From Minwuia sp. (GTDB lineage: Bacteria; Pseudomonadota; Alphaproteobacteria; Minwuiales; Minwuiaceae), in contig JARGPL010000026.1 of the NCBI GenBank assembly GCA_029210175.1, positions 1 to 38,042 of the forward strand: a stretch of DNA of 38,042 nucleotides, written 5' to 3'. Numbering within the stretch: position 1 is the stretch's first letter; every line of letters begins with the position of its first letter. Below the pieces are notes generated by a model. That model had not been told where the DNA came from. It searched no databases and saw only the letters and a list, made by a program, of their open reading frames with translations. Both the position numbers and the translations under genes were made by a program. This document shows, piece after piece, positions 23,451 through 34,389 of this stretch.

Positions 23451-24194
23451 TCAAAGTGGCGGGCGATACCCCGGCGTACGGCGTCGCAGATAAACGCTCA
23501 GGAAGGCTTTCATCAGTTCCGGTTCATCGGCCAGTGCCCTGCGCACCAGCGGCAAGGCTGGGCGATTGAGCACGGTCTCGGCCAGCAGGCGCGCATTGTA
23601 GCGCGCCAGGCCCTTGATCTGGGCCAGTACCCGTTCCTGCTGGCGATCATCCAGAACCGGCCAGAGTATGAGGCCCAGCACCACACGCGGCTGCATCAGG
23701 TCAATGACTTGCGGCCCGGTTTCCAGCGACATGGCGAAGGCGAAGGCCGCGCGAACGCCGATCCCCTCATGCATCAGCTCGGCCTGCGCCAGACGCAGCC
23801 AGACATACGGCTGGGCGGGATTGTTGGCGAGCGACCGACGGCCAGCAGCAATCGAACTCTCGACCGCCTGCTTGCGCATGTCGCTGCCTATCGGAGCGGA
23901 CGTGGCCGCAACCAGTTCGATCAGGGCCAGGTCACGGGGCGAGCGATAGTCGCGCGGAATGGACTTCTCTGCGGTCAGGAACGCCTTGCGCGCGCGATCG
24001 ATCGCCGGGTCGCCGATCTGTTCGCCGCGTCGCAGTTTCTCGATCGCCGGTTCGCCGGCCGTGGCGTTGATGGCACCGATCAGGCGCGGTCCGCTCAAGG
24101 CAAGAATCAGAATTCCGGCGGCCATGATGGCAAGGCCGCCTGTGGAAGACCCGAAGTGTATGCCGCTCCACCGTCTCCGGCGATTACGTCCCAT
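23451..24194 (-). CDS. Unknown membrane-anchored protein overlapping the Wzc gene
   Basis: A 247-residue protein I do not recognise. It has a basic start (MGRNRRRRWSG), one membrane segment (about 20-40, GLAIMAAGILILALSGPRLI) and a helical periplasmic part with a TPR-like stretch (SPRDLALIELVAATSAP; NPAQPYVWLRLAQAEL; GVRAAFAFAMSLETGP). The ATG at 24194 lies inside the last codons of the tyrosine kinase gene, an 11-base overlap, and is chosen over upstream in-frame codons because homology to a membrane protein starts there. Translation is thus coupled to the kinase. A role in polysaccharide assembly is suggested by position only. Confidence 0.72.
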   Translation of the reverse strand: MGRNRRRRWSGIHFGSSTGGLAIMAAGILILALSGPRLIGAINATAGEPAIEKLRRGEQIGDPAIDRARKAFLTAEKSIPRDYRSPRDLALIELVAATSAPIGSDMRKQAVESSIAAGRRSLANNPAQPYVWLRLAQAELMHEGIGVRAAFAFAMSLETGPQVIDLMQPRVVLGLILWPVLDDRQQERVLAQIKGLARYNARLLAETVLNRPALPLVRRALADEPELMKAFLSVYLRRRTPGYRPPL

Positions 24195-26520
24195 AATACT
24201 TTCCGTAACCCCGGTAATAATAATAGGAGTCACTGTAATTGTACTTCTGATGGCGACGGATATCGACCCGCGTCATCACGACACCTGCCAGGTCGCCGTT
24301 GGCTTCCTGCACCTGCCGGATACCTGCAAGCACCGCCTCACGACGGGTGGAACCCCAGCGCACCAGGAACACGGACTTGTCGACATGGCGCAGCAGTACC
24401 AGCGCATCGGAAACCGGCAGCACCGGCGGTGTGTCCAGGACGACCAGGTCATAGCGACGGGTCAGTTCCTCGATCAGCTGGCGCATGGCGTTGGAGCCCA
24501 GTGCGTCCGGCGGGTTCGGAACCTTGGCACCGGCGGTGATGTAATGCAGGCCCGATTTCAGATCGATCTCCACCGCATCATCGATTTCGGTCGCGCCGGT
24601 CAGTATCTCGGCCACGCCCTTGCCGTTCGGCACGCCGAGGGATTCATTGACCGACGGCTTCCGCAAGTCGCAGTCGATCAGGATCGTGCGCTGGCCCGCC
24701 TTGGCGGAGGCACGCGCGACCGACACGGCCGTCGATGTCTTGCCCTCTGCCGGCACCGATGACGTGAACATGACGGATCTCGGGCGTTGATCGACACTGG
24801 ACAGCATCAATGATGTCCTGATTGTTCGTATCGCCTCCGAATAGAGCGAATTCGGTTCATCTATGACAAAGTCTTCCGGTGTGGAGCGGCGACCGTCCAG
24901 GATCGACAGGCGCGGCACCAGGCCAAGCGCCGGAACATAGGCCAGTTGCTGCAACTGCTGCAGCGACCGGAACCCGGTGTCCATGTATTCGATCAGGAAG
25001 ACAACCAGCACACCAAGAATTGCCGAACCGACAAGGGCGGCAGCAATTGTCAGGCTGCGACGGGGAAAGCTCGGCTCCAGCGGTGTGCTGGCGCTGTTGA
25101 TGACCCGGGCGCTTGCCTGCTGGGGGCTGCGCTCCTGCAGGTCGACTTCCTTGAAGCGGCTGAGGATCGTGTCGTAGAGCTGCTTTGCGGCGTTCCGCTC
25201 CGATTCCAGGGACCGCAGCGTGACTTCCGAGTCAGTCTGCTCGGCAACCTGCAACGCCAGCGCTTCGATCTCCGTATTCAGGTTCTCTGTCTTGATCCGC
25301 GTCAGTTCCAGCTTGTTGTCCAGGGCCACGACGATCTTGGTGATCTCGGAACGAATGGCACTCTGCAGATCCTGGAGTTCGGCACGTTTCAACTGCAGGC
25401 GGGGATGCTGTTCGCGCAGCTGTGTGCGCAATTCCGCGATCTCGCGCAGAACCTCGGTTTCCTGCTCACGCAGGCGCACGATCAGAGTGGAGTCGAGCAC
25501 CGCCGTCACGCTTTCGATGCCATCGGCACCTTCGCTCAACAACCGCTTCACCTGTGACACGCGGGCAGCGGCTTCCGCTTCCAGCTCGCGGGCTTCGAAA
25601 CGCTGGCGTGTCAGTTCGGCCAGTTGCTCCTGCAGCAGCGTGGTCTGATTGCGATAGTCCACGACGCCATTGTCCCGGCGGAACTGTTCCAGCGCCTTCT
25701 CGGATGCCAGATAGGCCGACTTCAGGCTTTCTGCCTCACCACCCAGGAAGGAGGACGCGTTGGATGTTGCCTCGCTTTTCTCAGTCCGCGTCGAGTCGAC
25801 ATAGACCTCGGCAAAGGCATTGGCGACTTCCCGGGCGAAGGCCGGCTTGTCGGACACGAAACTGATCGAGATCGTCCGCGCACGCTCGGAAGGGTCAACG
25901 CCCAGGTTGCCGAGCAGCCCCTTCACGATGGACTGGCGTTCAAAATCCGCACGCTCTTCAGCGGTCATGGATTCCAGCACGGACACCTGCGGGCTCTCCT
26001 GGGAGCCGCCACGCAGGGTGTTCAGTGCGCCGCGCACCCCGTCCACGACCGGGTCAGGCAGTACACTCTTGATCGCTGCCTTCACGCTGCCCAGAAGGGA
26101 AGCCTTGTTCTGATCCCCCCACCAGAGCGCAGACGGATCGTCGAACAGACCCAGGCGTTCCGCCACCTCTTCCGCCGCGAAGGAGGACGAGATGATCGCG
26201 GCCTGCGTCTCGTTGAAATAGAAGTCCTGTTGTCCCTGCTGCAACACATCCTGGATATTGACGACGCGCTGGTCCTGAATGCCGATCTCGACCTCGGCAG
26301 AGGCAACGTACAGCGGGATTCGGGTCGTCACCCAGTAATAGGCGATGGCGGTCATGAGCATCATGATGGCGACGATGATGAACTTCCGGCGCCAGATCAC
26401 GCCGAACACATGGCGGAAGCTGATCAGCGACTGGTCGTTTCCGGACTGCGCCATGAACGGCGGCAGTTCTGAAGAGTCATCCATCGACTGTGCCTGCTGC
26501 AAATAACTTACGCTCGCCAT
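24184..26520 (-). CDS. Wzc-type polysaccharide co-polymerase and tyrosine autokinase
   Basis: A 778-residue fused polysaccharide co-polymerase/BY-kinase that controls chain length and export. An N-terminal Wzz domain has membrane helix 1 in RRKFIIVAIMMLMTAIAYYW. Long coiled coils (about 255-430) lead to a second membrane helix (LTIAAALVGSAILGVLVVFL) and a cytoplasmic kinase with Walker A SSVPAEGKTSTAVSV, Walker A' RTILIDCDLRKPSV, and Walker B DLVVLDTPPV. The C-terminus is a tyrosine cluster (YNYSDSYYYYRGYGKYYGT), the autophosphorylation tail. Start ATG 26520 is preferred; a GTG 16 codons upstream and an ATG 12 codons inside are alternatives. A full-match sigma-54 promoter lies about 240 bases upstream. 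Confidence 0.92.
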   Translation of the reverse strand: MASVSYLQQAQSMDDSSELPPFMAQSGNDQSLISFRHVFGVIWRRKFIIVAIMMLMTAIAYYWVTTRIPLYVASAEVEIGIQDQRVVNIQDVLQQGQQDFYFNETQAAIISSSFAAEEVAERLGLFDDPSALWWGDQNKASLLGSVKAAIKSVLPDPVVDGVRGALNTLRGGSQESPQVSVLESMTAEERADFERQSIVKGLLGNLGVDPSERARTISISFVSDKPAFAREVANAFAEVYVDSTRTEKSEATSNASSFLGGEAESLKSAYLASEKALEQFRRDNGVVDYRNQTTLLQEQLAELTRQRFEARELEAEAAARVSQVKRLLSEGADGIESVTAVLDSTLIVRLREQETEVLREIAELRTQLREQHPRLQLKRAELQDLQSAIRSEITKIVVALDNKLELTRIKTENLNTEIEALALQVAEQTDSEVTLRSLESERNAAKQLYDTILSRFKEVDLQERSPQQASARVINSASTPLEPSFPRRSLTIAAALVGSAILGVLVVFLIEYMDTGFRSLQQLQQLAYVPALGLVPRLSILDGRRSTPEDFVIDEPNSLYSEAIRTIRTSLMLSSVDQRPRSVMFTSSVPAEGKTSTAVSVARASAKAGQRTILIDCDLRKPSVNESLGVPNGKGVAEILTGATEIDDAVEIDLKSGLHYITAGAKVPNPPDALGSNAMRQLIEELTRRYDLVVLDTPPVLPVSDALVLLRHVDKSVFLVRWGSTRREAVLAGIRQVQEANGDLAGVVMTRVDIRRHQKYNYSDSYYYYRGYGKYYGT

Positions 26521-26726
26521 GATGCTTGCCCGCCACTCTCGTTCCGTTGCGGGTTCCAAACGAATCACAAATTACGACCATCTAATCGAAATCACAATTC
26601 TTTCAGAACCTTATCAGATCATCCTGACATCTGGCAGCAGGTTCAGAAGTGCGCGGTGTTTGCAATTTGCATCCAACCGGCCTGATTACCCAACATGTAG
26701 ATGCAGCAAGTGCACCCACACACCAG

Positions 26727-26746
26727 ATACCGGGACATCCCGATAT
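26727..26746. promoter_or_regulatory. 20-bp palindrome in the Wzc-gene leader
   Basis: ATACCGGGACATCCCGATAT is a near-perfect palindrome (arms match at 8 of 9 with a 2-base centre). On the transcript predicted from the sigma-54 site it would occupy about +5 to +24, so it could be an operator or an RNA hairpin. Confidence 0.5.
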
Positions 26747-26762
26747 TCTGGCATGGTAACAA

Positions 26763-26777
26763 GCAACCACTGTGCCA
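26763..26777 (-). promoter_or_regulatory. Sigma-54 promoter of the Wzc-type kinase gene
   Basis: On the minus strand the sequence is TGGCAC-AGTGG-TTGC, matching the sigma-54 consensus TGGCAC-N5-TTGC at every defined base, with the correct GG/GC spacing and TT after it. Predicted start of transcription is about 26751. Sigma-54 promoters need an ATPase activator, so the kinase would be under regulated on/off control. No upstream activator site was identified. Confidence 0.75.
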
Positions 26778-26905
26778 GACGCGCCAAAGCGCACATCCTG
26801 CGGCCTTTGGAAGGTCGGGAAGGCAGTCAGGCACCTCGGAACTGGCTTGATTCGCAACAGGTTTCGCAGAATTCAGGGCCAGGCAGGCCGGTTTCGGGAC
26901 ACGCC

Positions 26906-29872
26906 TCAGTTGATTGCGCTCAATGGCCGATCACGTAACCTGTCACGATATGACGTCATGAAGGCCTCGAACTGATCGACCTGGGCGATCTCCGCAGCCA
27001 GATTGCGGAATTCGGCGCTGTCGCGACGGTCTTCCGCAGTGACGACCTGGAATGCGGGCCATTCGGGCTGCCCCTTCATCCGGTCCGCAAACGAACGCCG
27101 CAGTTCGAGCAACGCCGTGCGGTCGCCGGCCAGGGAACTGGCGATGGCGAAGCGCAGGATATCGCGGCGGGCGTCCTGGGCAAGCGGGTTGGCGTCCTGC
27201 CGCAGGGCCACCAGCTTCGGTGCGAGGGATACCGCAGCACGTCCCCACTTCCGGGCCCGCCAGAGGATTTCCGTGCGAACGTCCGCCACGTCCTGTCCCT
27301 GCAACCCGGAAATCAGGACCAGCGCCCGATCATACTTCCCGACCTCTGTCAGTGCACGGGATTCCAGCAGCAGTCTCTCCCGCTGCAGATCTTCACGCAT
27401 CGACAGCGTCCTGGTGTTGCGCAGGGCCTCTATTGCATCGTCGGGCCGTCCGTCCAGCAGGTTCAGCACGGCCAGACGCGTGCCGACCCGTGCCTTCTCC
27501 TCCCCCCGCAGCCGGTGCAGGACCTGATGTTCCAGCAGCTTGGAAGCTTCACCCAGCAGTTCGACCGCAGCCAGCCGGTCCGCCAGACGCCGGATCATCC
27601 TGTCGCCCCTGGCCCCGTCCGGGGTCAGTTCACGGAACTCGTAATAGAGTGCCATGGCAGTGACCGGTGACATCTCCGACGATTGCCCTTCTTCGAACAG
27701 GCTCGCGAAGACTTCCTTCATTTCGCCGGCCAGTGCCTGGGCCTCAGGCATGTCAGGGAACCGCTCCACCGTCTGGCGCATGGACATCATGCCCTTGCGA
27801 TACTGTCCGGCCTCGACGTACAGGCTGGCCAGGCGCTGCATCAGTTCGAACTCGAACACGTCGCCACGCCAGGCGAAGCGCAGCCGCTCCAGCCTCTCGA
27901 TGGCCTCATCGGTCTCGATGCGTTTCTCATCCAGCAACAGGTTGGTTTCCGCGAAGACCGCCTGGGCGCGAACCGGGCGATAGGGACTTTCGGCAAGCTC
28001 CGCGAACAGGGCGGCTGCATCCTCGACATCCCCGGTCAGGGCATGGATGCGTGCGGCCAGCAGCTTGGCTTCCTCGCGACGCGACTCCGTGCCTGCATGC
28101 TTCAGCAACGCAGAGATCTGCTCCCCGGCCATCTTCGGGTCATTCTGGGCCAGTGCCGTCTCTGCAAAGGCCAACCTCAGGTCAGGCTGCATTTCGGCAG
28201 GCATCTTCGACAAGGTTGGCAGGCCAGCCAGAAACTCGCGCCGGGCTTCCTGGTACTCACGTCGTTTCACGGCCAGCAGGCCACGGAACAGGGCAACATC
28301 CTGCGCCCCGGCCAGCTTGGGATGACGCAGGTCGCCTGCGGCCTCACCCAGCTTTCCGGCAAACAGGCGCGCGACACCGCGCAAGGCCCGATAGGCCGGA
28401 TCCGTGTCGGCGTACTTGTCTTCCGCCTCGATCCGATGCATGACGCCCAGCGCCTCCTGCGCCAGCCTGTGGCCGACCAGGAACCGCGCAAGCGCCAGGC
28501 GTTCGCCATTCCGTGCGGCCGGCGTTGCCACCGCGATCCGGTACATCAGGTCCTGTCGCGTCTCATCAACATCGACATCTTCCTGCCACATGGACAGATC
28601 GAAGACGCTGTAAGGCGCATCGCTGTTGTCCCCCCCGGTGATGCCCGGCGGGCCACCCGTGCCCTGCCCCTTGCCGCCGCTGCTTTCAGACGCAAGGAAC
28701 AGCGTGTCCCGACCACCGATCGCGAGCCCGCGGTCATCGACCACGATCTTCAGTGCCTCCGCATGGAAGCGAACGGCAATGCCTTGCTGGGTAGGCGGCA
28801 GATCGAACAGGACGTAGCGGCGGGCCGGATGCACACCCAGACCCGCCTCCATGACAGGCACCAGGGCCAGGCGATCGCCCACAACGGGATCATCGATCAG
28901 GATTGGTTCTGCTGCATTGGCAATCGCCGCGAAGACCCGGGGGCCTGATGGCGCATCGGCCTGCGCTTCCAGCCAGACAGCGGTCTCGGCACGCCCCCGT
29001 CCACCACCGATATCAACGACCCAGTCGTTGCCATCCACAGTGACGGAGAGTGCCGCGCCCGCTGCAACATCGATCCGCACCACCGATCCCGTGGCTGAAG
29101 GTTCCGTCACGACACGTTCGACCGGTCCCTGTGCTGTCTCTCCTTCAGGCCCCGGATCGACAGTCAGGTCATCGCCAAATGCCAGCCAGACATGTTCGCC
29201 CCGGTGCACCGCGACCGCTGGCACGCGCCTTGGCCAGTGAAACCGCATGATCGTGCGCCCTGGCCGCAGGTCGTAGGACACGGGAACCATATCGCCCTGC
29301 GCCCTGGCCACGTTTGCCCTTGCAGTGCCGGACTTGACGGTTCGTGACGCTGTGGGGCGTTCGGCCTGCTTGGCCGGCTCACGCAAGGACGGGCGCGGTT
29401 TGGCTTGCGCCGTGGTCCGGGTCTGGGCCGGGGGCGGTTTCGTCGACGGCGCAGTCACCGGCTTCCGGGTTGGGGCGGGCACGCTGCCCGCCAGCACCTT
29501 CAGGTCCAGGACGACCTTGCCGCCAGCCACGAAATGCTTGCCCAGCCGTGCGTTGGCCAGTTCCAGCCGCACGATACGTCCGCTTTGCAGCACGTCGACG
29601 GAGCTTATCGCCCGCGCGCCCACCGTCTGGAATGCTGTCAGATCGAAATCGCCGGGCCGGTCAAAGACAATGTCGACAACATCGCCCTTGTCGTTCACTG
29701 CATAGCCAGACGGTTCCGGCCAGTCGAAGACCATGCGGCTGAACCCCGGATGATCACCGAACCGCACACGGACTTCCTCCGCCCCGACGCCATTGCCCAC
29801 GGAGAGAAGGCTGAACGACAAGGCAACCAGCACCGTCGCCAGACAGGTACGCTGCAACAGGGTTCGGATCAT
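26906..29872 (-). CDS. Large secreted AMIN/TPR-like protein of the motor operon
   Basis: A 988-residue protein with a Sec signal peptide (ATVLVALSFSLLSVGNGVGA). Residues about 32-130 look like an AMIN domain (VRVRFGDHPGFSRMVFDWPE ... VVLDLKVLAG), a fold found in cell-wall binding and secretin-linked proteins. A Pro/Thr/Ala-rich linker follows (about 130-190), then a second beta-rich region (about 195-400) and a long helical TPR-like part (about 440-970: ALARFLVGHRLAQEALGVMH; AETALAQNDPKMAGEQISAL; AEIDYxx-like spacing repeats). The precise function is unknown. The start overlaps the MotB-like gene stop (ATGA), so it is translated with the motor proteins and may be a periplasmic motor or envelope scaffold. 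Confidence 0.75.
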   Translation of the reverse strand: MIRTLLQRTCLATVLVALSFSLLSVGNGVGAEEVRVRFGDHPGFSRMVFDWPEPSGYAVNDKGDVVDIVFDRPGDFDLTAFQTVGARAISSVDVLQSGRIVRLELANARLGKHFVAGGKVVLDLKVLAGSVPAPTRKPVTAPSTKPPPAQTRTTAQAKPRPSLREPAKQAERPTASRTVKSGTARANVARAQGDMVPVSYDLRPGRTIMRFHWPRRVPAVAVHRGEHVWLAFGDDLTVDPGPEGETAQGPVERVVTEPSATGSVVRIDVAAGAALSVTVDGNDWVVDIGGGRGRAETAVWLEAQADAPSGPRVFAAIANAAEPILIDDPVVGDRLALVPVMEAGLGVHPARRYVLFDLPPTQQGIAVRFHAEALKIVVDDRGLAIGGRDTLFLASESSGGKGQGTGGPPGITGGDNSDAPYSVFDLSMWQEDVDVDETRQDLMYRIAVATPAARNGERLALARFLVGHRLAQEALGVMHRIEAEDKYADTDPAYRALRGVARLFAGKLGEAAGDLRHPKLAGAQDVALFRGLLAVKRREYQEARREFLAGLPTLSKMPAEMQPDLRLAFAETALAQNDPKMAGEQISALLKHAGTESRREEAKLLAARIHALTGDVEDAAALFAELAESPYRPVRAQAVFAETNLLLDEKRIETDEAIERLERLRFAWRGDVFEFELMQRLASLYVEAGQYRKGMMSMRQTVERFPDMPEAQALAGEMKEVFASLFEEGQSSEMSPVTAMALYYEFRELTPDGARGDRMIRRLADRLAAVELLGEASKLLEHQVLHRLRGEEKARVGTRLAVLNLLDGRPDDAIEALRNTRTLSMREDLQRERLLLESRALTEVGKYDRALVLISGLQGQDVADVRTEILWRARKWGRAAVSLAPKLVALRQDANPLAQDARRDILRFAIASSLAGDRTALLELRRSFADRMKGQPEWPAFQVVTAEDRRDSAEFRNLAAEIAQVDQFEAFMTSYRDRLRDRPLSAIN

Positions 29873-30465
29873 CGGGTCAGCTCCAGCGCTTGTCGCACCA
29901 CGATCTCCAGTCGAAACGTGTCCAGATCGGATGCAATGCGGCTTTCAATGGGAAGGGGACCAGGCAGACCACCGGTGACCAGCGCCGTGGCAACGGTCTC
30001 CGCGCGTGCCAGCCCCACGTCATAGACGCCAAAACCTGTTGCACGGGCTGTCGCGCTGTCGGGAAAGACGGCGCGGATCGAGACAGCCAGACCGGATCCG
30101 GCCAGGTAATCGCCCAGGGTCAGCAGGAAGGAATCAGCCACATCGGCATTGGGGCGCAGGACAACACCCTGATCGGTTGCCCGCACTTTCAGTGGCCAGT
30201 CCGCCGCACGCGCGTCGCCGCGAATGACGGTCGCGAGATAGCTGGTGTCCGTCGGCAGGTCCTGAAGATCGCGCAGCACCCCGGCCGCCGGCGGCGCAAC
30301 AGTCGGGCTCGGCTTGCTCCAGGCACCCTGCACCGGACCCAGGTCATCCAGCAGATCCTCGATGCGCGGTGTATCGAATTCGGACATCGACAGCATCAGG
30401 ACGAAGAAACCGGTCAGCACTGCCGCGAGGTCAGCAAACGCGATCATCCAGGAAGACTGGCTCAT
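29869..30465 (-). CDS. MotB-like membrane protein carrying the stator Asp motif
   Basis: A 198-residue protein. The N-terminus SSWMIAFADLAAVLTGFFVL is the MotB transmembrane helix, with an Asp at residue 12 in the position of the proton-channel Asp of MotB (W-x-x-x-FAD). The rest is a short, degenerate OmpA/MotB-like domain (DVGLARAETVATALVTGGLP). It is shorter than normal MotB (about 250-350 residues), and the plug region is not obvious. Overlaps both neighbours as ATGA. It may be an accessory motor protein, or a divergent MotB whose MotA lies elsewhere. Confidence 0.72.
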   Translation of the reverse strand: MSQSSWMIAFADLAAVLTGFFVLMLSMSEFDTPRIEDLLDDLGPVQGAWSKPSPTVAPPAAGVLRDLQDLPTDTSYLATVIRGDARAADWPLKVRATDQGVVLRPNADVADSFLLTLGDYLAGSGLAVSIRAVFPDSATARATGFGVYDVGLARAETVATALVTGGLPGPLPIESRIASDLDTFRLEIVVRQALELTR

Positions 30466-31178
30466 GATCGTTCATCCCGGACACGGGCGAGCGCGAAACG
30501 CAGCTGGCCAGATGTCTTCTCCGGATCGATCCGAATGGTGAAATCCGCCGGGTCGATGCCATTGCGCACCAGATCACGGCCCAGTGCGGCCGCCTGCCGG
30601 ATCGCCAGATCCGGTTGCGTTCCGCGCGGCACCTGCAGCGCCACAGCCAATGATTCACGCTTCCCCAGTTCCCCCAGGACTTCCGCCAGACGCCGCATCA
30701 TCGACAATCGCTGCGGGCGCAAGACCGCCGTGTCACCATCGAACACGCGGTGCATCGGCAGGCTGACGACCATCCGGCCATCGCCTGAACTGATCACCGT
30801 GAAGGTGGAGGCGAATTCATGCCGGAAGAGTGTGCCCAGCCTCTGTTCCAGTTCATCGGCAACAAGCGCCATGGGTCGCGGTTCGACGACCGGACTTACG
30901 TCGACGGGCAGTCCCAGACCGGCAATCACGGCCTTTGTCCGCACGCTCGAGACTTCGGCACGGGCGTTCAGCATGATGAAGAAGGCAAGCAGGATCAGGT
31001 AAAGTGAAAGGAAGAGCACGCTGTTGCCCGCCTTCCGCCGTTCCGCAGGGTCCTTCGCATCCGCCAGGGACGGCATCGGCTCTGGCAACCACTGGGAAAC
31101 CAGCGGCACAGCATCTGCGCCATCAACGGCGCCCGCTTGTACGTCCTGGTCTGTCACGGCGGTGGTGGAAAGCGCCAT
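30462..31178 (-). CDS. Second MotB/OmpA-like membrane protein, lacking the channel Asp
   Basis: A 238-residue protein with an acidic cytoplasmic start, one membrane helix (about 51-70, NSVLFLSLYLILLAFFIMLN) and a periplasmic domain with OmpA/MotB-like features (VVSLPMHRVFDGDTAVLRPQ; LAIRQAAALGRDLVRNGIDP). Unlike the neighbouring gene, the membrane helix has no Asp, so it should not conduct ions. The two genes share an ATGA overlap and may form a hetero-pair that replaces or assists MotB. No close known relative can be named from reading. Start ATG 31178. Confidence 0.68.
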   Translation of the reverse strand: MALSTTAVTDQDVQAGAVDGADAVPLVSQWLPEPMPSLADAKDPAERRKAGNSVLFLSLYLILLAFFIMLNARAEVSSVRTKAVIAGLGLPVDVSPVVEPRPMALVADELEQRLGTLFRHEFASTFTVISSGDGRMVVSLPMHRVFDGDTAVLRPQRLSMMRRLAEVLGELGKRESLAVALQVPRGTQPDLAIRQAAALGRDLVRNGIDPADFTIRIDPEKTSGQLRFALARVRDERS

Positions 31179-32413: not shown

Positions 32414-33483
32414 GCCCCGTCTCCCTGCTGGCGATATGCCTTGTCGATCTTCACGGAAATGTTCTGCCCCCGCCGCCCCATGTGGCCTGCGGCCATGGGT
32501 ATCCCGCCACAGTTCAGACGCACGGCGCTGTCGGGCGACGCATTCAGCATCATCGTGTCACCGACCTTCATCCGCATGACCTTGGACAGGGGCAAGGTCT
32601 GCTCGTCCAGCACGGCGACCAGATCGACATCCGTCTTCCAGAGTTCGGTTGCCAGATGGTTTTCCCAGATCGAGTCGCGACCGAACTTCTCACCCATGAA
32701 CATCTGCAGCAGCAGTTCGCGGATCGGTTCCAGCGTCGCATAGGGCAGCAACACATCCAGACGCCCGCCGCGGTCTTCCATGTCGATGCGCAGCTTGATG
32801 ACGATGGCTGCATTCGCCGGTCGGGCGATGGTGGCGAAGCGCGGGTTGGTCTCAACCCGGTCGAAGTTGAAGGCGACAGGCGACAGCGGCTCGAAAGCGG
32901 CAGACATGTCAGCCAGCACAACAGCCACCATGCGCTCCACCAGGTTGCGTTCGATGGTGGTATAGGGCCGACCCTCGATCCGCATCGCGGCTGTACCGCG
33001 ACGCCCGCCGAGCAGGACATCCACGATGGAGTAGATCAGGGATGAGTCGACCGTGATCAGGCCATAGTTGTCCCACTCCACGGCCCGGAACACCGACAGG
33101 ATGGCCGGCAGGGGAATGGAGTTCAGATAATCACCAAACCGCACGGACGTGATGTTGTCGAGGGCTACCTCGACATTGTCGGATGTGAAATTGCGCAGGC
33201 TGGTTGTCATCATGCGCACCAGCCGGTCGAAAACGACCTCGAGCATCGGAAGGCGTTCGTAGTTGACCAGGGCGGAATTGATGATCGCCTTGATGCCGGA
33301 TTTCTCGCCATCGTCGTCACCGTCCGCGTCGAAGCCCAGCAGACTGTCGATCTCATCCTGATTCAGGATGCGGTTGTTGGCACCGAACGAACTCTCCATC
33401 TCCTCATCGGAGCCTTCGGCAGCATCTGCCTCGCTTGCCTGATCCGGCATATCCACTTCCATGGGCTTGTCTTCTTCAGCCAT
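32410..33483 (-). CDS. fliM: Flagellar motor switch protein FliM
   Basis: A 357-residue C-ring protein that receives CheY-P and sets rotor direction. The CheY-binding motif LNQDEIDSLLGF is at about 40-51 after an acidic leader, followed by the middle domain (INSALVNYERLPMLEVVFDR ... TSVRFGDYLNSIPLPA) and the C-terminal SpoA-like domain (LPLSKVMRMKVGDTMMLNAS). The conserved GGRRG-type segment and the ERNLVERMV helix are present. Length is slightly longer than usual owing to the acidic start. Followed by DUF6468 with ATGA overlap. Confidence 0.95.
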   Translation of the reverse strand: MAEEDKPMEVDMPDQASEADAAEGSDEEMESSFGANNRILNQDEIDSLLGFDADGDDDGEKSGIKAIINSALVNYERLPMLEVVFDRLVRMMTTSLRNFTSDNVEVALDNITSVRFGDYLNSIPLPAILSVFRAVEWDNYGLITVDSSLIYSIVDVLLGGRRGTAAMRIEGRPYTTIERNLVERMVAVVLADMSAAFEPLSPVAFNFDRVETNPRFATIARPANAAIVIKLRIDMEDRGGRLDVLLPYATLEPIRELLLQMFMGEKFGRDSIWENHLATELWKTDVDLVAVLDEQTLPLSKVMRMKVGDTMMLNASPDSAVRLNCGGIPMAAGHMGRRGQNISVKIDKAYRQQGDGA

Positions 33484-34157: not shown

Positions 34158-34389
34158 GACGGGGAACCTCGTCCACAGGTGGTTTCAATTGCGCAGAGGC
34201 TAGGCCGTCTCGGTTAACAAAGTGTTGGGATCGGGCATCCCCGGCAGAAATTGCCGCCCTGGCCCGCCGGTTCTTGCCGGGCGGAGAACGCTTTCAGAAT
34301 TTTTCCCTTTATTTTCATATGGTTGAATTTGGCATGGGCGATGCACTGCCCTTGGCCAGCAACCGTTTCAGGAGCTTTCGAGAAGCACC
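34158..34389. other. Divergent flagellar control region, fliL / flgF
   Basis: 232 bases. The sigma-54-like box for flgF is at 34330-34344. A low-GC stretch (TTTTTCCCTTTATTTTCATATG, 34302-34323) sits just upstream of it and could be an IHF or bending site. For fliL I see only a poor sigma-54-like match (CGGCCTAGCCTCTGC on the minus strand, 34193-34207). GAGAAGCACC precedes the flgF ATG. Confidence 0.5.
34330..34344 (+). promoter_or_regulatory. Sigma-54-like promoter of the flgF-G-A-H operon
   Basis: TGGCAT-GGGCG-ATGC differs from the sigma-54 consensus TGGCAC-N5-TTGC at two positions and keeps the essential GG and GC at correct spacing. Predicted start of transcription is near 34356, about 34 bases before the flgF ATG. 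Sigma-54 control of rod and ring genes is known in other alphaproteobacteria such as Caulobacter. Confidence 0.65.

Follow-up and report, generated by a model that had tools for sequence, protein, structure and literature searches.

The Wzc-type tyrosine kinase gene (wzc) of Minwuia sp., a marine bacterium, is preceded by a sigma-54 promoter that we consider, with high confidence, to be genuine, and we find it reasonably likely that this promoter is driven by a LuxO/SypG-like activator working from a downstream enhancer. The window, that is, the whole stretch of DNA analysed (38,042 nucleotides), is contig C12 of a 4.09 Mb genome that is 99.99% complete (G000). The comparison set comprised seven Minwuia genomes, namely G000 and six others marked as belonging to the same genus (G001 to G006).

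Results

The wzc gene occupies positions 24184..26520 of the minus strand and encodes a polysaccharide co-polymerase/tyrosine autokinase of 778 aa. Its identification as a Wzc-type tyrosine kinase in the initial annotation was borne out by the Pfam domains Wzz, GNVR and AAA_31 and by a match to the TIGR01007 autokinase family above cut-off (143.5 bits, cut-off 108). The protein has the architecture of a Wzc-type autokinase, with the Wzz domain joined to the BY-kinase domain. Membership of the PEP-CTERM/XrtA group was rejected, as the protein scored below the cut-offs of both TIGR03018 (117 vs 231 bits) and TIGR03007 (106 vs 279 bits). Each of the seven genomes carries an orthologue, with identities of 91-92% in four relatives and 69% in G001 and G005. 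Outside the genus, G008 carries a distant wzc homologue (40%) without a strict box in locus L091, and no wzc of this kind was among the matches of G007. Immediately after wzc lies a conserved ORF (23451..24194, minus strand; 260 aa) that had no family hit and shows one hydrophobic stretch by eye. This gene order was unchanged in L021, L022, L036 and L037, and the ORF is probably co-transcribed with wzc.

On the minus strand, wzc comes after fliL, fliM, two more ORFs, an ORF without any hit, a gene for a MotB-plug protein and a 988-aa ORF whose TPR matches all fell below cut-off. On the plus strand, wzc is flanked on one side by flgF, flgG, flgA and flgH and on the other by genes for a sugar transferase of the WcaJ type and a protein of the O-antigen ligase type. 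The pair formed by the MotB-plug protein and the TPR-like ORF (26906-31178, minus strand), placed between flagellar motor genes and wzc, was also seen in L021 and L022; in G001 and G005 it does not stand immediately before wzc. There, the TPR-like ORF is replaced upstream of wzc by another gene, the end of whose ORF looks wza-like by eye.

The sigma-54 (-24/-12) promoter box, TGGCACAGTGGTTGC, lies at 26763..26777 on the minus strand. As first described, it is an exact match to the full consensus TGGCAC-N5-TTGC, with the invariant GG and GC present. It is the sole exact match within the 38-kb window, where 0.19 would be expected by chance and 15 of 100 shuffles contained at least one; boxes with up to two mismatches numbered 59, against 52 expected. 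Genome-wide, G000 contained 11 exact boxes and 11 matches to the reversed-pattern control, and a stricter pattern, TGGCAYRNNNNTTGCW, gave 24 hits over the seven genomes vs 18 with its reversed control. Because exact matches are this common in shuffles and in the reversed control, the string alone is weak evidence, and bare box counts, showing no excess over shuffles or reversed controls, were rejected as proof of a promoter.

Non-conservation among close relatives had been named at the outset as an outcome that would speak against the promoter. When this comparison was run, the box was found at the same place in all seven genomes, reading TGGCAC in five and TGGCAT in two (a C to T change at box position 6) and continuing with N5-TTGCTT. 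The distance from the box start to the wzc ATG was 257 bp in G000 and 251, 256 or 257 bp across the set. In the aligned region up to the ATG, the box constituted the best-conserved 16-column block, with 12 invariant columns and 10 in the next block. Identity to the window was 81-88% over the 16 columns of the box and 31-45% over the 120 bp upstream of it. The box was retained in G001 and G005 despite the different upstream gene, and the leader there is just 41-42% identical. Conservation at a fixed place in every genome of the set is therefore strong evidence for a functional promoter, and sigma-54 itself presumably uses the box.

From the geometry of sigma-54 promoters, transcription is predicted to start at 26750..26754 (minus strand), some 12 nt beyond the GC of the -12 element. 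With a predicted start at about 26752, roughly 230 nt would separate it from the ATG, in agreement with the leader of about 230 bases estimated initially. A 20-bp palindrome had also been reported just past the start. It is indeed present at 26727..26746 (minus strand), but it is imperfect (16/20 against its own complement) and, by eye, absent from the six relatives; as it is not kept in relatives, it was rejected as an operator or regulatory element. In G000, a 29-nt hairpin that takes in this palindrome would form the 5' end of the transcript.

Further into the leader, the block TATCTGGTGT (26720..26729, minus strand) was found as TATCKGGTRT in all seven genomes at +48 or +49. A leader stem-loop at 26695..26721 (minus strand), taken from the G000 fold, displayed compensatory changes: 4 of its 11 pairs were changed on both sides, as counted in four of the seven genomes that were chosen as folding alike, and 10 of 500 shuffles reached as high a value. 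At the same position G004 has a different hairpin, and G001 and G005 have none of that kind. Folding the whole leader gave z-scores of -2.7, -1.5, -2.3, -1.9 and -2.9 in five genomes; those of G001 and G005 were close to 0. Without the ATG, the G000 leader scored -3.4. We regard this evidence of leader RNA structure as suggestive only. A riboswitch in the wzc leader was rejected, since 26300-27000 matched no Rfam family at E-values up to 1. Near the wzc ATG (26521-26640, minus strand), a second conserved leader block with repeated AATTGTGATTTCG / AATTTGTGATTCG was observed in five genomes.

Downstream of the promoter, at 26660..26672 on the minus strand, we identified an enhancer-like site of the LuxO type, ATGCAAATTGCAA. 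The LuxO site is given as TTGCAWWWTGCAA in the available text of PMC10162802 and PMC11443567, and the wzc site agrees with it at 12/13 positions in G000, G002 and G004, at 10/13 in G003 and G006 and, counted by hand, at 8/13 in G001 and G005. In all seven genomes its core, GCA-WWW-YGC, has the same offset of +107 from where the box begins; this spacing is fixed while the box-to-ATG distance and the position of the intervening TATC block (48 or 49) vary. The probability of a 12/13 match in 400 bp was 0.0005 on window composition and 0.005 on leader composition, values that have to be read in the light of the motif having been picked after the conserved core had been seen. In none of the seven genomes did the 400 bp before the wzc box contain a LuxO-type site of at least 10/13, nor did a search of wzc in these genomes, allowing up to one mismatch to the IHF consensus, reveal an IHF-like site for looping.

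The initial annotation had suggested an activator-gated switch. Alongside the box conserved in all seven genomes, G000 was found to encode RpoN (one match to its DNA-binding domain, 234 bits) and, among ten Sigma54_activat matches, six full-length activators (176-244 bits), all of which sustains the proposal of an activator-gated sigma-54 promoter before wzc. The other four matches scored 20-27 bits and were, by eye, two of Clp type, one of ComM type and one of no clear type. By our reading, the six activators are NtrC, NtrX, a FlbD-like protein, a response regulator on contig C20 and two LuxO-like proteins, A (on C11) and B (on C3). A (G000:C11:27072-28520) is a LuxO-family response regulator in which the receiver, an AAA+ domain with GAFTGA and a FIS-type HTH are all present. 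Orthologues of A and B, assigned by identity, occur in 7/7 genomes each, B of G003 being split in two pieces, and G002 has a further LuxO-like protein (49%). The best PDB match of both proteins was LuxO 5ep0 (447 bits for A and 468 for B), the best non-LuxO structure reaching 324 and 308 bits. The HTH of A equals that of V. cholerae LuxO at 17 of 22 residues. When scored on the list in the available text of PMC11407668, the DNA-critical LuxO residues of the HTH were kept at 10/11 in A of all seven genomes, at 8/11 in B and at 4-6 of 11 in the other four activators of G000. The luxO-A and luxO-B genes lie on other contigs than wzc in G000; G001 and G002 are each a single contig, and there too the two genes are far from wzc. 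A or its paralogue B would bind 26660-26672. That the activator of the wzc promoter is of the LuxO family we judge to be slightly favoured, and we give even chances to an activator working through the downstream site, whose role as an enhancer is putative.

Sites with up to one mismatch to TTGCAWWWTGCAA numbered 24 (distinct) in the seven genomes, three of them at wzc. Two lie upstream of luxO-A itself (in G001 and G005), 89 bp before its ATG; upstream of luxO-A in the other five genomes no such site was found, the best reaching 7-9 of 13. Among the remaining 19 sites, 11 had, no more than 300 bp away, a sigma-54 box of up to one mismatch, the background being 0.07 per 600-bp stretch; collapsed to independent loci, 5/11 had a near-exact box. 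None of the boxes at these 11 sites is exact, and several point away from the site or sit in coding sequence. As 8/19 sites had no box of up to one mismatch within 300 bp and none had an exact one, LuxO sites were rejected as a clean genome-wide marker of a regulon. At two other loci the site is downstream of the box. On G000:C23 it lies about 51 bp downstream, at the gene start, and at a Sel1 gene (four genomes) it lies 42 bp downstream, inside the coding start, where coding explains its conservation as well. The one-mismatch sigma-54 box of this Sel1-repeat gene (L141 1700-1840; orthologues L127, L143 and L144) is conserved in four genomes. Just upstream there is a palindrome, GGAAACGCTGCGTTTCC, which is perfect in three of them and changed at two positions in G002.

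Other sigma-54 boxes in the genus were inspected as well. In G000, G002, G003, G004 and G006, a strict box stands upstream of a PilZ-domain gene that neighbours a second wzc (Pfam assignment on the G002 protein). Upstream of this gene (G000:C3:20252, L069; orthologues L068, L071, L083 and L086), dyads of the form TGTYA-N7-RAAACA were seen by eye; as this is another type of dyad, a different activator may serve the PilZ promoters. A diguanylate cyclase gene of the GGDEF type likewise has a strict box before it in G002, G003 and G006; its G000 counterpart (C20:99799, L057), assigned by Pfam, has an exact box followed by G (relatives L073, L075 and L077). The PilZ and diguanylate cyclase boxes suggest a sigma-54 regulon linking polysaccharide export and c-di-GMP. 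At G001:C1:1221020 (L067) and G005:C14:57983 (L072), a strong intrinsic terminator comes no more than about 140 nt after a sigma-54 box, and no ORF of at least 60 aa was called in between, which makes these loci candidates for a sigma-54-dependent small RNA. No LuxO-type site of at least 11/13 was found near either candidate.

The flgF operon had been credited with a sigma-54-like box in this window, and such a box is present at 34330..34344 (plus strand), with two mismatches and conserved in the three relatives examined out of six. About 75 bp upstream of it there is a conserved GGCA-N5-TGCC dyad (34243..34255, plus strand), which we take to be FlbD/ftr-like. Dyads of this kind occur in the window at 33418, 34243, 35613 and 36952 only. 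The dyad of flgF is missing at wzc, so the idea that wzc shares its control with flagellar genes, beyond sigma-54 itself, did not hold. Sharing through FlbD was accordingly rejected, there being no ftr-like dyad near wzc.

We then looked beyond the genus, in a sample of 385 alphaproteobacterial genomes that included four of the seven genus genomes. Four of the 385 had a sigma-54 box preceded, at 50-80 bp, by a LuxO-type site; the reversed control gave no hit. In G252 the hit is next to a luxO-like gene; in G114 two sites precede a gene for a sugar-nucleotide epimerase; in G152 the gene behind the hit is, by eye, presumed to be flgA; and in G040 it is an ORF of no assigned function. Relatives of A were 52-53% identical in G114 and G252, the G252 match spanning one stop codon, and 35-43% identical in G152 and G040. 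In G114 and G252 the 52-53% LuxO relative is within about 5 kb of the site, and one of the two lies in a wza/kinase locus. When the site was sought downstream of the box instead, at a gap of 76-106 bp and with TGCAWWWTGCA matched exactly, 2/385 genomes had one, in both cases at Minwuia wzc. Locus L173 (G114:C65:4000-18837) encodes a Wza-like exporter, a P-loop kinase-like protein, two STAS proteins, a hybrid kinase, a HATPase-receiver-SpoIIE protein and a LuxO-like activator, and has two sigma-54 boxes; it resembles syp.

Discussion

According to the model that we favour, RNA polymerase carrying RpoN would be held on the box in a closed complex. In response to a presumed signal, an activator of the NtrC type, for which the LuxO-family protein A is the likeliest candidate, would be phosphorylated and would then bind the LuxO-type site, which lies about 85 bp downstream from where transcription is predicted to begin. 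From there it could loop back and open the complex, permitting transcription of wzc and probably also of the ORF behind it.

Such a circuit has close counterparts. The initial annotation had called sigma-54 control of polysaccharide genes uncommon; as far as the available texts go, it is already documented for syp and scv (PMC3162934, PMC8941931, PMC10162802), sigma-54 control of the cell exterior, including exopolysaccharide, being the thesis of Francke 2011 (PMC3162934). In syp of V. fischeri (SypF/SypG) and scv of V. parahaemolyticus (ScvE), a LuxO-type regulator acts on sigma-54 polysaccharide promoters (PMC10162802, PMC8941931 and PMC12369376, in the parts available), and scv/syp loci are on record in two alphaproteobacterial genera in the accessible text of PMC8941931. 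As in syp, the LuxO-B gene of G000 is a divergent neighbour of a PAS-HisKA-HATPase-REC-Hpt kinase gene. Unlike in syp and scv, the Minwuia wzc is not in one locus with its activator, and the site is downstream and of the LuxO type rather than the published SypG motif. The working would thus be syp-like with two features missing, the linked locus and the upstream sites, and we therefore regard it as a variant of syp-type control. The wzc promoter shares with the Vibrio LuxO/Qrr promoters a site resembling TTGCAWWWTGCAA, RpoN and a similar reading head (PMC11443567, PMC11407668, as far as their available text goes). It differs from them in that the target is a polysaccharide kinase and in having a single site, placed downstream, where those promoters have one or two on the upstream side; the known LuxO sites are upstream, two per gene in three of the four qrr genes, in the available part of PMC11443567. 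An enhancer about 85 bp downstream is a geometry that goes unmentioned for LuxO or SypG in the portions of the literature compared. Downstream enhancers, the ftr sites, are known for flagellar sigma-54 promoters of Caulobacter (works cited in PMC3096577), but the Minwuia wzc has neither an ftr-like dyad nor an IHF-like site. In the PEP-CTERM/XrtA regulon (PrsR), sigma-54 boxes are tied to exopolysaccharide (PMC1569441, available text); the Minwuia wzc differs by falling below the TIGR03018 and TIGR03007 cut-offs. In open-licence literature, no title among the matches listed concerned this wzc promoter.

Several other explanations have to be weighed. The sigma-54 promoter may be real and served by another activator, such as the C20 regulator or LuxO-B via a different site, with GCAAATTGC being the site of an unrelated regulator or a part of the leader. 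The degeneracy of the LuxO-type site in two genomes would fit this, as would the TGTYA-N7-RAAACA dyads of the PilZ promoters, which indicate that more than one activator may serve such promoters, and the poor alignment upstream of the wzc box could hide a diverged enhancer. Against this, no conserved dyad was seen by eye in that upstream region, the +107 spacing is fixed and A has a LuxO reading head, so that we consider another activator rather unlikely, if a serious contender. That the activator is instead the flagellar FlbD, shared with flagellar genes, is quite improbable: wzc does stand behind flagellar genes, a FlbD-like protein is encoded and the sigma-54 box of flgF is conserved, but wzc has a GCA-N3-YGC core and no GGCA-N5-TGCC dyad, and in G001 and G005, where wzc follows a gene that is wza-like by eye, the box is retained.

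The leader might also act mainly as RNA, its conserved stem-loop controlling wzc after initiation and the GCAAATTGC core forming part of that stem-loop. The four compensatory pairs of the stem-loop at 26695-26721 (four genomes) and the z-scores of -1.5 to -2.9 in five genomes are in line with such a role; yet those four genomes were selected for folding alike, the z-scores of G001 and G005 are about 0, no Rfam match appeared up to E=1 and the core lies outside the stem-loop, which leaves this explanation improbable. Finally, the box could be fortuitous and wzc transcribed by sigma-70 from a conserved AT-rich part of the leader, given that exact boxes are no commoner than in the reversed control (24 vs 18 with the stricter pattern) and that another conserved block lies near the ATG in five of the seven genomes. 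Conservation of the box in 7/7 genomes, above that of any other block and including the two genomes whose leader is 41-42% identical, makes a chance origin very improbable indeed.

More broadly, we propose, as a tentative reading, that an alphaproteobacterial LuxO-family regulator might govern scattered polysaccharide genes, and perhaps c-di-GMP genes, via sigma-54, with an enhancer at wzc about 85 bp downstream of the start. If the model is true, the circuit leading from LuxO/SypG through sigma-54 to exopolysaccharide, best known in vibrios, would also operate in an alphaproteobacterial genus, where its targets would be unlinked to the activator and one enhancer would lie inside the transcribed leader at a conserved spacing. 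A testable activator and a testable site are thereby named for the timing of extracellular polysaccharide production.
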